Origin: Pegea sp. RAD2-039
Taxonomy: Eukaryota > Chordata > Thaliacea > Salpida > Salpidae
Length of the DNA stretch: 64,000 nucleotides
NCBI GenBank assembly: GCA_034620365.1
Contig: JAQGEQ010000339.1
Span: 372,001 to 436,000, forward strand
Reading direction: 5' to 3'
Shown here: positions 34,647-50,887 of the stretch, piece by piece
How positions within the stretch are numbered: the stretch's first letter is position 1
Layout: every line of letters starts with the position of its first letter
The notes under the pieces: generated by a model
Database searches by the model: none
What the model was told of the DNA's origin: nothing
The model's input: only the letters and a program-made list of their open reading frames with translations
Made by a program: the position numbers and the translations under genes

Positions 34647-36061
34647 TATGGCAAAAGTAACAAAAAATGCAAACTTTATATAAAAAGTATTCAATACTTA
34701 TATAATAATTAACAGCATGTATCTAATTATGATTATATAACTAAGTTTTGTTATAAAAATAAGTCGAAATGTTAAAGAAAGATTTTGATGAAATATTCTG
34801 ATGGAAATGCGATAATAATCGTCAATTTAAATCATCTATCCTTTTTTCTAGTAGACCTTTGCTATATTTCCTATCAGTGATCTTCTAAACGCTAAAAACA
34901 GCTACAAAAAATATGTTAAATTTATATTTGTTTACTTATTACTTGTCAATTAACTACAGTTTTATGTACTTTAATATTAAACTAAAAATTTCATTCATGC
35001 AAAAAAATCATGCATTGAACAGTCTAGGTGAATCACCAACTAAAAGCTTTTTGTAATTTCTACAAATTTTAAAAAGTTAAAAAGCTATTTAAAGATCTGA
35101 TCATTTTTCATTCCATATTTATTTTTGCTCTGAAGAGCTAATATAATTTCTTACATTAATTTTAAATAATTTTTGAAAACTTATGATAAATATCGTCTTA
35201 AATATAAAAAAATTTCCTTCACTAAAGTCACAACTTAAAGTTGCTAATTTAATGAATTATTTTCTCAAAATATTTTTTTATCATCTTTGCATTATAATTA
35301 TTTTGTGTTTTTATAATCTTTCAAAAATCTTCGACCTGAAATTAATGTTCGTTTAAAATAAACCTTCAAAAGAAAGTGTTTGCTAATATACCAAGAAAAA
35401 ATTACTTTTTCGTTCACCAAAACTGTATAACTTATTTGAAGCTTAATTTTACGCTATTATTTTTAATTATTAGTTCAGATATTTATGCAAAAGTAAATGT
35501 TTCAAGTTTGGGGAATTACCACGCTAAGATATCTTGTAAACAAATGAGTTAAGAAATACTTTTACATGCTTTTTAGTACTTTACGGAATTAATAGTTTGA
35601 TAATAAAATTAGTTAGTTTTGTTAAAAAAAATATTTTTCATCTTGTTGGTCAACAAAACAATCTAAACATATTTTTCTTGATGTTCTTAAGCTTTTACAA
35701 CTTCAAATGATAATAATTGAACATCAAACTTGAAGATTAAGGATGTTAAAGACAAGTATGATAATAGAAATAGAAGCTTGTTAAAAGTATTTAAATAAAG
35801 AAAACAAAAAAATTGGATTCTTATCTATTCAAAAATAACCTTCTAAGTAAGTTTAAATAATATTCTTTAGCAAATAATTATTTTTTAACCAAATATCTAA
35901 ATATTATCACTAGGATTATTAAACTAATAAATTGATGATATGTAAGCAAGTTTTTGATAAGGTTTAATATCTTACTTTTCAAATATAGTTGGAATATTTA
36001 GTAATAAAGTTTATTAAATTGCTTTAAAAAGTAAGTAAATAAGTACTTTAGTATTCATTTA
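34647..36061. other. AT-rich spacer
   Basis: AT-rich sequence upstream of the small helical gene. I see no exon, repeat or RNA gene. Confidence 0.55.
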
Positions 36062-36310
36062 CTACAATAAACGCGAGAGAGGGTGTCTTAAAAGACCTTC
36101 TTTTACTAGAACACACGCATATAATATTCTTGCTGCTGTAATTCCACAAAGATAACTCATACGTCTAAACCGTCCAAATTTGCAATCAACACTTTCAGTA
36201 TCGTCTTTCACCAGCAAACTCTTTTACATCACTGTAGGACTTTTTCATATGTATGTTGACTGGAATACTACCTGGTACATGTACACATTGGTTTTAGACT
36301 TCCTCTGTCA
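36062..36310 (-). other. Coding-like island, minus strand
   Basis: GC-richer than its surroundings. One minus-strand frame (about 36226-36062) encodes DDTESVDCKFGRFRRMSYLC and then GITAARILYACVLVKEGLL before a stop; a possible GTAAAA donor lies inside it. An overlapping upstream frame (about 36300-36200) encodes CVHVPGSIPVNIHMKKSYSD. Shifting from one frame to the other would need a splice or a frameshift. It could be the end of a gene, a processed fragment or an old transposon piece. I recognise no domain. Confidence 0.3.
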
Positions 36311-36815: not shown

Positions 36816-38222
36816 ATGGAAAAGAAAATACTATCAATAGGATTAATTTGTTTGGACATCATTTCAGTTTGTGACAACTTCCCAACTGAAGGATCAGACC
36901 AAAAGTAACAATAAATTAGATATTATTTACATATTTGATTACTCTTAAAATGATTTTATATCAGAGTCAAAGATATGAGAATGCAAAAAGGAGGAAATGC
37001 AGCAAATACAGCGGCAGTACTTGCATTACTAGGTAATAAAGTAGATTTCTTAGGATGTTTTCCTAAAAACCAAAACGACTTTTTTACACAGCAAAGTTTA
37101 AAGTGAGTTTATATAAATGTAAAAAGTATTCAAAATAATTCTAAACTATTAAGTGAGTCTTTTGCCAATCATAATCTGAAACTTTAGATTTATTCAGAAT
37201 GAGATGATGTCTTATGGTGTAGATATTACAAAATGTATTGAAGATATCAGCTTCGAGTTACCAATATCAACTGTCATCATTAATAGCTCAAATGGATCTC
37301 GAACTATTCTTGCAAACAAAAAGTTTGTTTAATTTCTAGTTTTGAATATTAACTTTGAAAGTAGATATTAATTACTTGCCGTTGTTTAACAATATATAGA
37401 AGGTAGAAAAGTTTAATGAATAAATAGTAATTAGTTAATAATAAATATAATGTTAATATTATACAGAACCAATGAAGTTACTTATGAAGCTTTTTCTAAA
37501 ATACAATTAGAAGATTACAAATGGATACACTTTGAAGTAGGAGAAATTATAATTATGAGCTACTTTATTAAAGAATTAAAACATTCAGGGAAGGAATGTT
37601 TTAGAAATTAATAGAATGATGAAAGATATCAAGAATTTTAACTCACGAGCCTCCAAAGCAAACCAAATTTTGATTTCTGTAGAGTTTGAAAAACCGCGAA
37701 GGTCAGATCTACCTCTTCTCTTGCCTTATGTCGATTTGGTTTGTTTATTATTTGTTCTTTGAACTCAAAATCAAAGTCATTTGTAAAGGTTCTAATTAGT
37801 GAAGAATTTGCTAAAAGTAGAAGTCACTTTTCAGCCTTAAGTTGTGTCTCTTCCTTCATAGAACAAGCAAATAAAGGGTGAGATAGTTTCAAATCTACTT
37901 CAAAAAAATCAAACTTGTTGTTGTTAGAACTGATGTAGTATGTGCTTGGGGCAGCAAAGGAGCAGCGTCTGGTTCATCTGGTTCTTCAAAAGTACCAGTT
38001 ATGACACCAGCAACTTCACCTCCTGATGACCTTGTTCGAGACACACTTGGTGCTGGGGATACTTTTAATGGATCTATAATCTCTCATCAATTTCAAGCTA
38101 TTGTGAAAAATGAAAAAGTGGATATCCAGGATAGTGTACAGTACGCATGTGATATAACTGGATATAAAGTTGGATTTTATGGTTACAAATGTTTAAAAGA
38201 TCACCCACATCTAAAAAAATGA
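36816..38222 (+). CDS. KHK: Ketohexokinase (fructokinase)
   Basis: Seven exons: 36816-36904, 36965-37102, 37188-37322, 37467-37536, 37589-37738, 37789-37877 and 37928-38222, 321 residues against 298 in human. The enzyme phosphorylates fructose to fructose 1-phosphate in the cytosol and belongs to the pfkB/ribokinase fold. Visible signatures are the N-terminal strand ILSIGLICLDIISVCDNFP, the glycine motif QKGGNAANTAAVLALLG, NSSNGSRTI, KWIHFEGRNVLEINRM, ISVEFEKPR and the anion-hole/catalytic motif RDTLGAGDTFNGS with the catalytic Asp near residue 268. The ATG at 36816 starts directly before the conserved first strand. The extra length lies mainly in a Gly/Ser/Pro-rich insert before the catalytic motif (about residues 235-256). 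All key residues are present, so it should be active. Confidence 0.94.
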
Positions 38223-38561: not shown

Positions 38562-41036
<2,475 letters not shown>

Positions 41037-49300: not shown

Positions 49301-50887
49301 ATTTGACTAATATTTTTACTAGAAACTGTTAATTGTGATGTATATGCAAACTCCAATAGACTTTCCATTGCAACCCTGAAATGTGTTCGTTAAAAAATTG
49401 AGTCTTTTTGCTGAGTAAGTAAATTTCAACAAATAAATTCTAGGAAATTAAAATTCCACGTTGATTTAAAGATTAGGAAATCTTTTTTTTAGAATAAAGT
49501 TTGTTCCTCTACAAATTATACTATTTAAATCAGAATATAAAAAGGGGTTGGTTTAAATTGGCCAAAAAACAACTTTTCGATTTTGAAAAGAAATTTGGAA
49601 TTGGCATTTTTAAATTATATATTAAAATATTCTGAACAAAGCTTGTATCAGAGACTTTCTTGGTCAGTGACAACTATCTAAATTGCTCAATGACACACAT
49701 GACACAATTGTTATTTCAAGATGTTTTCGCCTTGGTGGCGAAGCGGTTACTACACCTAGCTACAAGGTACATCTAGCTAGGAAGTACCAGGTTCGACCCC
49801 AGGTGGAGACATATAAAACTCCTGAGAAAAACCATAAAAAACTCCTGAGAATGTGTGTTAGTGAGATGTGCTCTCTTTAGGCACCCTCCTTCGCATTTAT
49901 ATATATAAAATAAAAATAAAATAAAGCTAAGCAAATTTGTTTTTACTTTTTTTCTACTTACCAAGCATAAGACTTATTTAAATGATAAAATATCGTACAG
50001 TTTAATCTATTAAATCAAATTAAGTATAATTTTCTTAAAACTAAATACCAGCATTAGAAAATATGATACATAAGAAAACCAGAACTAGATTTAATTATGT
50101 AGCACATCAAATTAATTAATTTCCTTTTGAAGATTTGATTTCAAAACTTATAGAAGCAGTAATGTTGTAATTAACAATTTCAATTACATAATCTATATTG
50201 AAAAATATTTAGAAAAATTTTTAACATTTTTTAATTTAAACAAATAACTTATTCGCTATTATCTAAATCAATAAAAATAATTACAAAACTAATTGTCTAA
50301 ACCTTGAAACAGTGCTAAGTTCAAGGACAATGTTATGGCTGATATTTTCAGGACTTGTAATTAAGCTATTGAAGTATGTGCTACAAGCTGCCAACACAGA
50401 TTTGTGTGCAGGTATTCTTACACCCTTAAAGAAAAATAAATAAGATGAGTATTAATTAAAATAATTTTTATGGACCACATACCTCTACAATCACTGTTAT
50501 ATCACATAAAAGACCTTTTTTACGTTGATCATTCAAAGATGAAAGTAAGTTTCCAGAATGGACACTTGATTTATAAACATATTGAGTTTGTAAATTGCAA
50601 TGAGCAGGTATTGAGGCTGAAATAAAAGATTAATCTTTCATGTATCTGATACAAATTAAATATTTAAAAGTATAACCTTCAAAGGCATAAAAAACTATAA
50701 ATTTTAGTTTTATACCTGTTTATATATTCTTTTTATTAAAATAAATAAATATTGTTGTCTTAAAGTTTATTTTAATAAATTTGCATAATAATTCAAAATA
50801 TATTTTAAAGTGAATTTGTTTAATTAACCAACCTTCAAAATTTAGAAAACTATTCTTCATTTGCAGATGAGATAGATATTCAGACAT
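46311..50887 (-). CDS. BACH: BACH-like BTB and CNC-bZIP transcription factor
   Basis: Sixteen exons: 50887-50833, 50616-50483, 50424-50303, 49375-49234, 49103-49015, 48663-48587, 48521-48484, 48385-48265, 48180-48107, 47951-47893, 47754-47578, 47413-47227, 47175-47080, 46871-46761, 46692-46594 and 46520-46311; 596 residues, every phase agreeing. The BTB domain spans about residues 19-150 ([46 protein letters not shown]). The CNC segment ([20 protein letters not shown]) leads into the basic region [17 protein letters not shown] and the leucine zipper. AAQRCRKRK is BACH-type; NRF-type factors have AAQNCRKRK. BACH proteins pair with small MAFs at MARE sites, repress oxidative-stress genes and are released by heme through Cys-Pro motifs; two Cys-Pro pairs are present. 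The donor of exon 48521-48484 could instead lie 21 bases further on (in frame). The donor after 46761 (GTCAGT) is weak. Confidence 0.93.
49722..49926 (+). mobile_element. tRNA-derived SINE with a LINE-like 3' tail
   Basis: The element lies in a BACH-like intron, in the opposite orientation to the gene. Its head has polymerase III promoter boxes: A box TGGCGAAGCGG at 49736-49746 and B box GGTTCGACCCC at 49790-49800, spaced as in tRNA genes. The body contains the word AAAACTCCTGAGAA twice. Positions 49847-49900 match 40725-40778 of the LINE without gaps at 48 of 54 bases. The tail is A/T-rich (ATATATAAAATAAAAATAAA). Such a tail would let the SINE use the LINE's reverse transcriptase. No clear target-site duplication was found. 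Confidence 0.87.

Follow-up and report, generated by a model that had tools for sequence, protein, structure and literature searches.

SINEs that share a common 3' end with a LINE are well documented, and 58 such SINE/LINE pairs are listed in one survey (PMC3747384). Among the stringent LINEs of the L2 clade, UnaL2, ZfL2-1 and ZfL2-2 carry a 3' stem-loop near the end, the ORF2 protein of a zebrafish L2-clade LINE binds such a stem-loop, and a single bulged stem nucleotide is needed in UnaL2, as cited in the same paper (PMC4176376). HaSE1 of Helicoverpa armigera is a tRNA SINE that its authors aligned to a Drosophila tRNA-Arg, and it has a 43-bp LINE-related 3' end (PMC3272025).

The locus studied here lies in a window, by which we mean the whole stretch of 64,000 nucleotides that was analysed (G+C 28%). 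It contains a SINE and a LINE with a common 3' end:

49731-49925, + strand: SINE copy of subfamily A, made up of a tRNA-Arg-like head, a linker, a LINE-derived hairpin and an A/T tail
49736-49746, + strand: match to the Pol III A box, TGGCGAAGCGG (by the box consensus)
49790-49800, + strand: match to the Pol III B box, GGTTCGACCCC (by the box consensus)
49818-49851, + strand: linker with two copies of ACTCCTGAGAA (49818-49828 and 49841-49851)
49847-49899, + strand: LINE-derived core of the SINE, 53 nt, one hairpin with a bulged A (from the match and folding)
49900-49925, + strand: A/T-rich 3' tail of the SINE
38565-40780 (3' end approximate), + strand: 5'-truncated LINE copy of an older family, endonuclease (EN) part missing and frame broken
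39130-40152, + strand: reverse-transcriptase (RT) fragment of this LINE (Pfam RVT_1, E 1.9e-32)
40725-40777, + strand: hairpin core of the LINE, 53 nt, agreeing with that of the SINE in 47 of 53 positions
40781-41036, + strand: (AAAT)n tail of the LINE, 64 units
36052-36115, - strand: decayed LINE tail relic, 36/54 against the SINE tail and 80% identical to the young LINE over 44 nt

The SINE resembles the pairs described in PMC3747384 in its tRNA-derived head, its LINE-derived 3' end and its short terminal repeats, and differs from them in its new sequence, in a shared stretch of ~53 nt and in the many intact copies of close partners. With UnaL2, ZfL2-1 and ZfL2-2 it has in common the 3' stem-loop near the end, and where a bulged stem nucleotide is reported to be important in UnaL2, the tails studied here have a nearly invariant bulged A; this apparent likeness concerns the stem-loop and its bulge (PMC4176376). 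Compared with HaSE1, which agrees in its tRNA-Arg alignment and LINE-related 3' end, the tail here is TAAA-like and the target-site duplications (TSDs) are unclear, whereas HaSE1 has an RTE LINE as partner, TGA repeats and 15-bp TSDs (PMC3272025). A literature search, which reached few subscription journals and covered truncation lightly, turned up neither this pair nor any account of LINE copies truncated at a tail hairpin. The best supported reading is that the pair belongs to the ordinary, already well known stringent kind and that its sequence is new.

Elsewhere in the window, an open frame just upstream of the LINE (37902-38219, + strand) has a weak match to PfkB carbohydrate kinases (E 7.9e-5, 22.6 bits, curated cut-off 25.8), other frames hold RhoGEF and MORN domains, which say no more than that the host may be an animal, and positions 2-109 match the flank of one LINE locus (L010, 347-454) at 78.7% over 108 bp, representing another repeat.

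A young SINE family with a tRNA-like head

The original prediction described a tRNA-headed SINE with well preserved A and B boxes. Matches to the consensus of both boxes are present in the head. ARAGORN and Rfam called no tRNA in the head of the window copy or of other copies, and the description as tRNA-headed therefore rests on the boxes together with an alignment to the host tRNA-Arg(TCT). Genes for this tRNA were sought (nine places) because subfamily B of the SINE has a CTTCTA loop. Among 16 distinct host tRNA sequences of six anticodon kinds, tRNA-Arg(TCT) was the best match to the head (z 5.5-6.3 against shuffles), followed by tRNA-Arg(CCT) with z 2.8. On this evidence the description holds, though neither program gives a match.

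The assembly searched comprises 105.7 Mb in 387 contigs and gave no match to COX1. By a DNA search with the SINE, in which 40 of 1844 candidates were scored, we found 39 other full-length copies with 96-99% identity. Their alignments place the 5' start of the window copy at about 49731, from where 38 of the 39 align, the remaining one aligning from 49724. The element is about 195 bp long and has at least two subfamilies. Against the consensus of subfamily A, the window copy is 99.5% identical over 190 bases if the first six consensus bases are left uncounted; these six (GTCCTG) have been lost or changed beyond recognition in the window, and counting them gives 5 differences in 175. In the linker, the second copy of ACTCCTGAGAA overlaps the start of the LINE-derived part. 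Genome-wide, the head occurs 358 times (22-nt pattern, at most two mismatches; control 0) and the tail 261 times (53-nt pattern, at most two mismatches; control 0), so that the head is clearly multi-copy.

The tail is also normally attached to a head. We examined 20 exact-tail loci, drawn in listing order from 100 listed (those skipped were mostly places known from the DNA search, and one of the 20, L040, is also in the scored set of that search). Of these, 19 carry the head and the last (L044) is a 5'-truncated SINE. Conversely, we fetched the first 20 listed exact heads without a listed exact tail, omitting three already known copies, and 17 of them keep the full tail core. The core is broken in L086, and in L087 and L089 it has been lost through an internal deletion. 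In these two loci the head runs directly into the A/T tail and both the linker and the hairpin are missing, perhaps as the result of a jump while the copy was being reverse-transcribed.

The alignment of the family used 44 of 48 loci (L044, L086, L087 and L089 were left out), with 32 copies in subfamily A and 12 in subfamily B. Subfamily A has an anticodon arm 10 bases longer than that of B, and subfamily B often has a tail nearer to the (AAAT)n of the LINE as well as the junction ..CTCGTGAGAATG, which is closer to the LINE's ..TTTGTGAGAATG. Divergence from the respective consensus is below 3% in 41 of the 44 copies and 3.4, 5.8 and 8.7% in the other three, in a sample whose first eight loci were chosen for similarity and a further twenty because their tail was exact. 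The copies thus make up a genuine dispersed family of young age.

The LINE families and the shared hairpin

According to the original prediction, the end of the SINE matches the 3' end of a CR1/L2-like LINE in the same window without gaps at 48 of 54 positions (49847-49900 against 40725-40778). The match stands up to a shuffle control, in which 300 shuffled queries were run against both strands of the window and the best of them reached 32; for the real query, the next-best place in the window reached 36, at the old tail relic (36067, minus strand). The A/T-rich runs described after both shared tails were recovered as well, at 49900-49925 in the SINE and as (AAAT)n at 40781-41036 in the LINE. 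That a SINE and a LINE of this kind co-occur in one window is ordinary, since both are repeated hundreds of times. The 64 AAAT units of the window LINE compare with about 2 to 10 in the other copies inspected by eye, and this long array is a microsatellite grown from a retroelement tail.

A protein search with the reverse transcriptase of the window LINE, in which 119 of 3212 candidates were scored, separated two families. Most of the scored rows form a younger sister family with 78-80% (~79%) identity to the window sequence. Of the 23 other rows with 84-90% identity, which constitute the older family, 19 contain stops, and the longest frame is at most 652 aa. A frame of at least 1007 aa with no stop within the match was counted by hand in 36 of the 119 rows. 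The window LINE belongs to this older, mostly broken family, and the younger sister has intact members.

In one young copy (L059), an ORF1 of 331 aa overlaps an ORF2 that measures 1015 aa from its first ATG. The ORF2 contains the domains PF14529 (Exo_endo_phos_2), PF03372 and PF00078 (RVT_1), i.e., an apurinic-type endonuclease and a reverse transcriptase, a combination that fits the CR1/L2 group and is also common to other LINE clades. Among PDB entries, the best matches of the LINE reverse transcriptase were R2 and L1 proteins. CR1 ORF1 carries a PHD-like zinc finger, and residues 34-64 of the L059 ORF1 match PHDvar_NSD at E 0.042 and 14.3 bits, under the cut-off of 27. The 3' ends of young LINEs are 96.5-100% identical (66 pairs among 12 copies). 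The copies L060 and L061, and likewise L059 and L068, lie on different contigs or ~31 kb apart within the same or almost the same flanking sequence, which is duplicated DNA or uncollapsed assembly; the LINE copies are therefore not all independent insertions.

The shared core is predicted to be a single folding unit, consisting of a seven-pair outer helix and, inside it, a stem that carries a bulged A. Of the five intact tail types that were folded, four gave this same structure, with z from -2.0 to -3.5. It is not favoured in a LINE tail variant on three copies with frames of 1024-1028 aa (L060-L062; z -1.1) or in the window tail relic (z -0.3). Over 25 distinct tails, 97.1% of cells pair, compared to 38-59% when the structure is slid, and a pairing score as high arose in 8 of 500 shuffles. 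Covariation is weak: changes on both sides were seen in 2 of 18 pairs, a result matched by 24 of 500 shuffles. Folding energy and kept pairs, and weakly covariation, thus point to a stem-loop in the shared 3' part. The homology between SINE and LINE starts at the 5' base of this predicted hairpin, or two bases earlier in subfamily B.

With a probe made of the SINE core and the LINE end, we found 235 places within three mismatches (none with at most one, 13 with two; control 0), and the two commonest of these near tails match the SINE core at 51 of 53 positions. Eleven near tails were fetched, ten of the 13 with two mismatches and one with three. Two lie on young-type LINE copies (L114 and L118), two on older-type copies (L117 and L119), and the other seven are tail-only (L115, L116, L120-L124). 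One of the tail-only places, L122, has the SINE's GAGATGTGC and matches at 52 of 53 positions; this headless tail is assignable to neither SINE nor LINE.

Target sites and LINE truncation

On the whole, target-site duplications are not clearly discernible. The only clear long one among 44 SINE copies is 19 bp (L088). In a loose test of the same copies, matches of at least 6 bp occurred in 18 versus 9.3 expected, above all 300 shufflings, and of at least 7 bp in 5 versus 3.6 expected; the matching words are A/T-rich and lie at varied distances, 8-61 nt beyond the core, and local composition is left uncontrolled by the shuffling. When the test was bound to the tail end, 10 of 39 SINE copies had matches of at least 4 bp versus 6.7 by chance (26 of 1000 shufflings reach 10), and from 5 bp upward the excess was gone, L088 excepted. 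Truncated LINE copies likewise gave no TSD excess among 42, with one 12-bp match (L156) lying 33 nt into the compared 3' stretch. At L007, where a SINE sits within a LINE, (A)TATC flanks the insert on each side and five extra bases are present. ZfL2-1 makes TSDs of 5 bp, and L007 resembles these and the extra 5' nucleotides of ZfL2-2 (PMC4245944).

Some inserts consist of little more than the hairpin. Only the hairpin and 0-22 bases upstream are present in 7 of the 11 near-SINE tails and, among 20 young-type tails drawn in the order listed, in 4. Hairpin-only inserts with unrelated flanks were seen at the seven tail-only places named above, at L125, L129, L133 and L138, and at L156, L163, L167, L178, L215, L218 and L221. 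Following this observation, the 3' half of the tail was searched alone, so as to catch ends inside the hairpin. The search returned 469 places, the first 89 of which were classified, 71 by sequence and 18 as long through their reverse-transcriptase rows; four rows were dropped from the young count (L170, L173 and L142 as internal deletions, L181 as older-type). Relative to the hairpin base, one young truncation falls inside the hairpin (-33 to -5), 12 fall at -4 to 28 (33 nt) and 8 at 29 to 280 (252 nt), while 64 copies extend beyond 280. Ends called by script and by eye differ in places (L129, 21 vs 7; L138, 8 vs 3; L192, 71 vs 63).

In the older family, the first 29 of 68 places gave one truncation inside the hairpin, four in the zone and six at 57-71 nt upstream (L193, L202 and L204, among 20 loci, were intermediate and not called truncations). 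The six (L186, L189, L190, L192, L194 and L199) have unrelated flanks. Given this second cluster, the hairpin base is not the sole hotspot. Among 50 listed SINE tails up to contig C51, four are truncated, two of them at ~+11 (L209) and ~+22 (L044) as judged by eye, one inside the hairpin and one in the head; most of this set was called full from head coordinates and seven were fetched.

There is a sizeable chance, somewhat short of even, that the hairpin plays no part in the LINE pile-up at its base, which would then be just the short end of an overall decay in length. The cluster at 57-71 nt (6 of 29 places) would agree with this, as would the short truncated inserts commonly left by L2-clade LINEs, for which one report gives 2 of 33 ZfL2-1 inserts as full length in DT40 cells (PMC4245944). 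Such decay should, however, run on into the hairpin, and both families together have 2 ends inside it (29 nt) against 16 in the zone (33 nt; binomial p 0.0016). The young zone also exceeds the density further up (Poisson p 1.4e-9; for both tests the limits -4 to 28 were chosen after the data were seen), and the zone as first noted (0-22 nt) holds 7 ends versus 0.73 expected when new loci only are counted.

The junction of SINE and LINE sequence falls within the same truncation zone. We tentatively suggest, as a hypothesis that the truncation counts allow without proving, that LINE reverse transcription may pass a checkpoint at the hairpin. Nearly all inserts include the hairpin in full, and the enzyme, held by it, would often be released just after copying it; a jump from the same spot to a tRNA-Arg-like RNA may have founded the SINE. 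Hairpin-only inserts would then be abortive products and the SINE a successful jump.

Origin of the SINE tail and its partner

The SINE core is identical to the window LINE at 47 of 53 positions, to the older consensus at 48 and to the young consensus at 49, in a LINE tail comparison that took 29 of 30 old loci (L036 was left out). A G-to-T change beside the bulged A breaks one hairpin pair in the SINE. The form GAGATGTGC occurs in 10 of 16 head-selected SINE tails versus none of 91 surveyed LINE tails. Because of this absence, and with L122 assignable to neither element, no clear LINE copy with the exact SINE tail was found among the 91 surveyed tails and 11 near tails.

A TTTT run terminates Pol III transcription, and selection against such a run could account for the divergence of the SINE tail from that of the LINE. 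TTTT is present in the core of 1 of 16 head-selected SINE tails, 13 of 20 old LINE tails and 19 of 71 young ones. We consider such selection doubtful, as the difference between SINE and young LINE is not significant (Fisher p 0.10), one SINE copy (L085) has TTTTT, and 52 of the 71 young tails already lack TTTT, so that a chance founder suffices for a TTTT-free SINE. TTTT avoidance had been suggested by selected samples and was set aside on the counts from the less selected ones.

Since the tails with 51 of 53 identities sit on both young- and older-type copies, the donor of the SINE tail would be an intermediate or else related to the young family, to judge by these alignments. That the older family of the window LINE, or an intermediate subfamily, is the partner instead of the young one is unlikely. 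The older family has the same hairpin fold and (AAAT)n tail, it agrees with the SINE in having TTCGCATT, a stretch that reads TTCACATT in the young consensus, and two of the 51/53 tails (L117 and L119) are on older-type copies. Against this, neither its consensus nor the window copy comes as near to the SINE as the nearest tails do, it has GGTACCC where the SINE has GGCACCC, and stops and short frames prevail among its reverse-transcriptase rows, with none above 652 aa. The original prediction of a SINE paired with a stringent LINE is therefore right in kind, as a dispersed tRNA-derived SINE shares a LINE 3' end, and needs correction as to the window LINE itself, which, with its more distant tail and its family's broken frames, is probably not the partner.

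That head and tail are separate repeats which merely adjoin is highly improbable: tail-only copies without a head do exist (L115, L116, L120-L124), but 19 of the 20 exact-tail loci, at unrelated flanks, repeat one and the same junction and linker.

We conclude that the SINE is very probably a tRNA-Arg-derived element in which the 53 bases preceding the A/T tail represent the 3' hairpin of a LINE lineage with intact members, and that it would be mobilised as one half of a stringent pair. Sharing this hairpin tail with the LINE family, it very probably hijacks the family's copying enzyme. What we observe is the shared hairpin, the copy numbers, the near-identical SINEs, the intact LINE ORFs, the 51/53 tail and the 5' truncation of both elements. 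In the mechanism that we infer, Pol III would transcribe the SINE from its A and B boxes, and the LINE ORF2 protein would bind the SINE hairpin as it does that of its own RNA. Target-primed reverse transcription would then start in the A/T-rich tail and insert the copy, usually with no clear TSD, making the SINE dependent on the LINE.

The pair is young and well preserved, and the partner lineage has intact members. It therefore offers a usable natural test of tail recognition, in which the SINE has a change beside the bulged A that is absent from the surveyed LINE tails and single bases distinguish the LINE tail variants. Should the accumulation of truncations at the hairpin base be borne out genome-wide, it would tie the sites of LINE truncation to the places where SINE/LINE junctions form, connecting two open questions.
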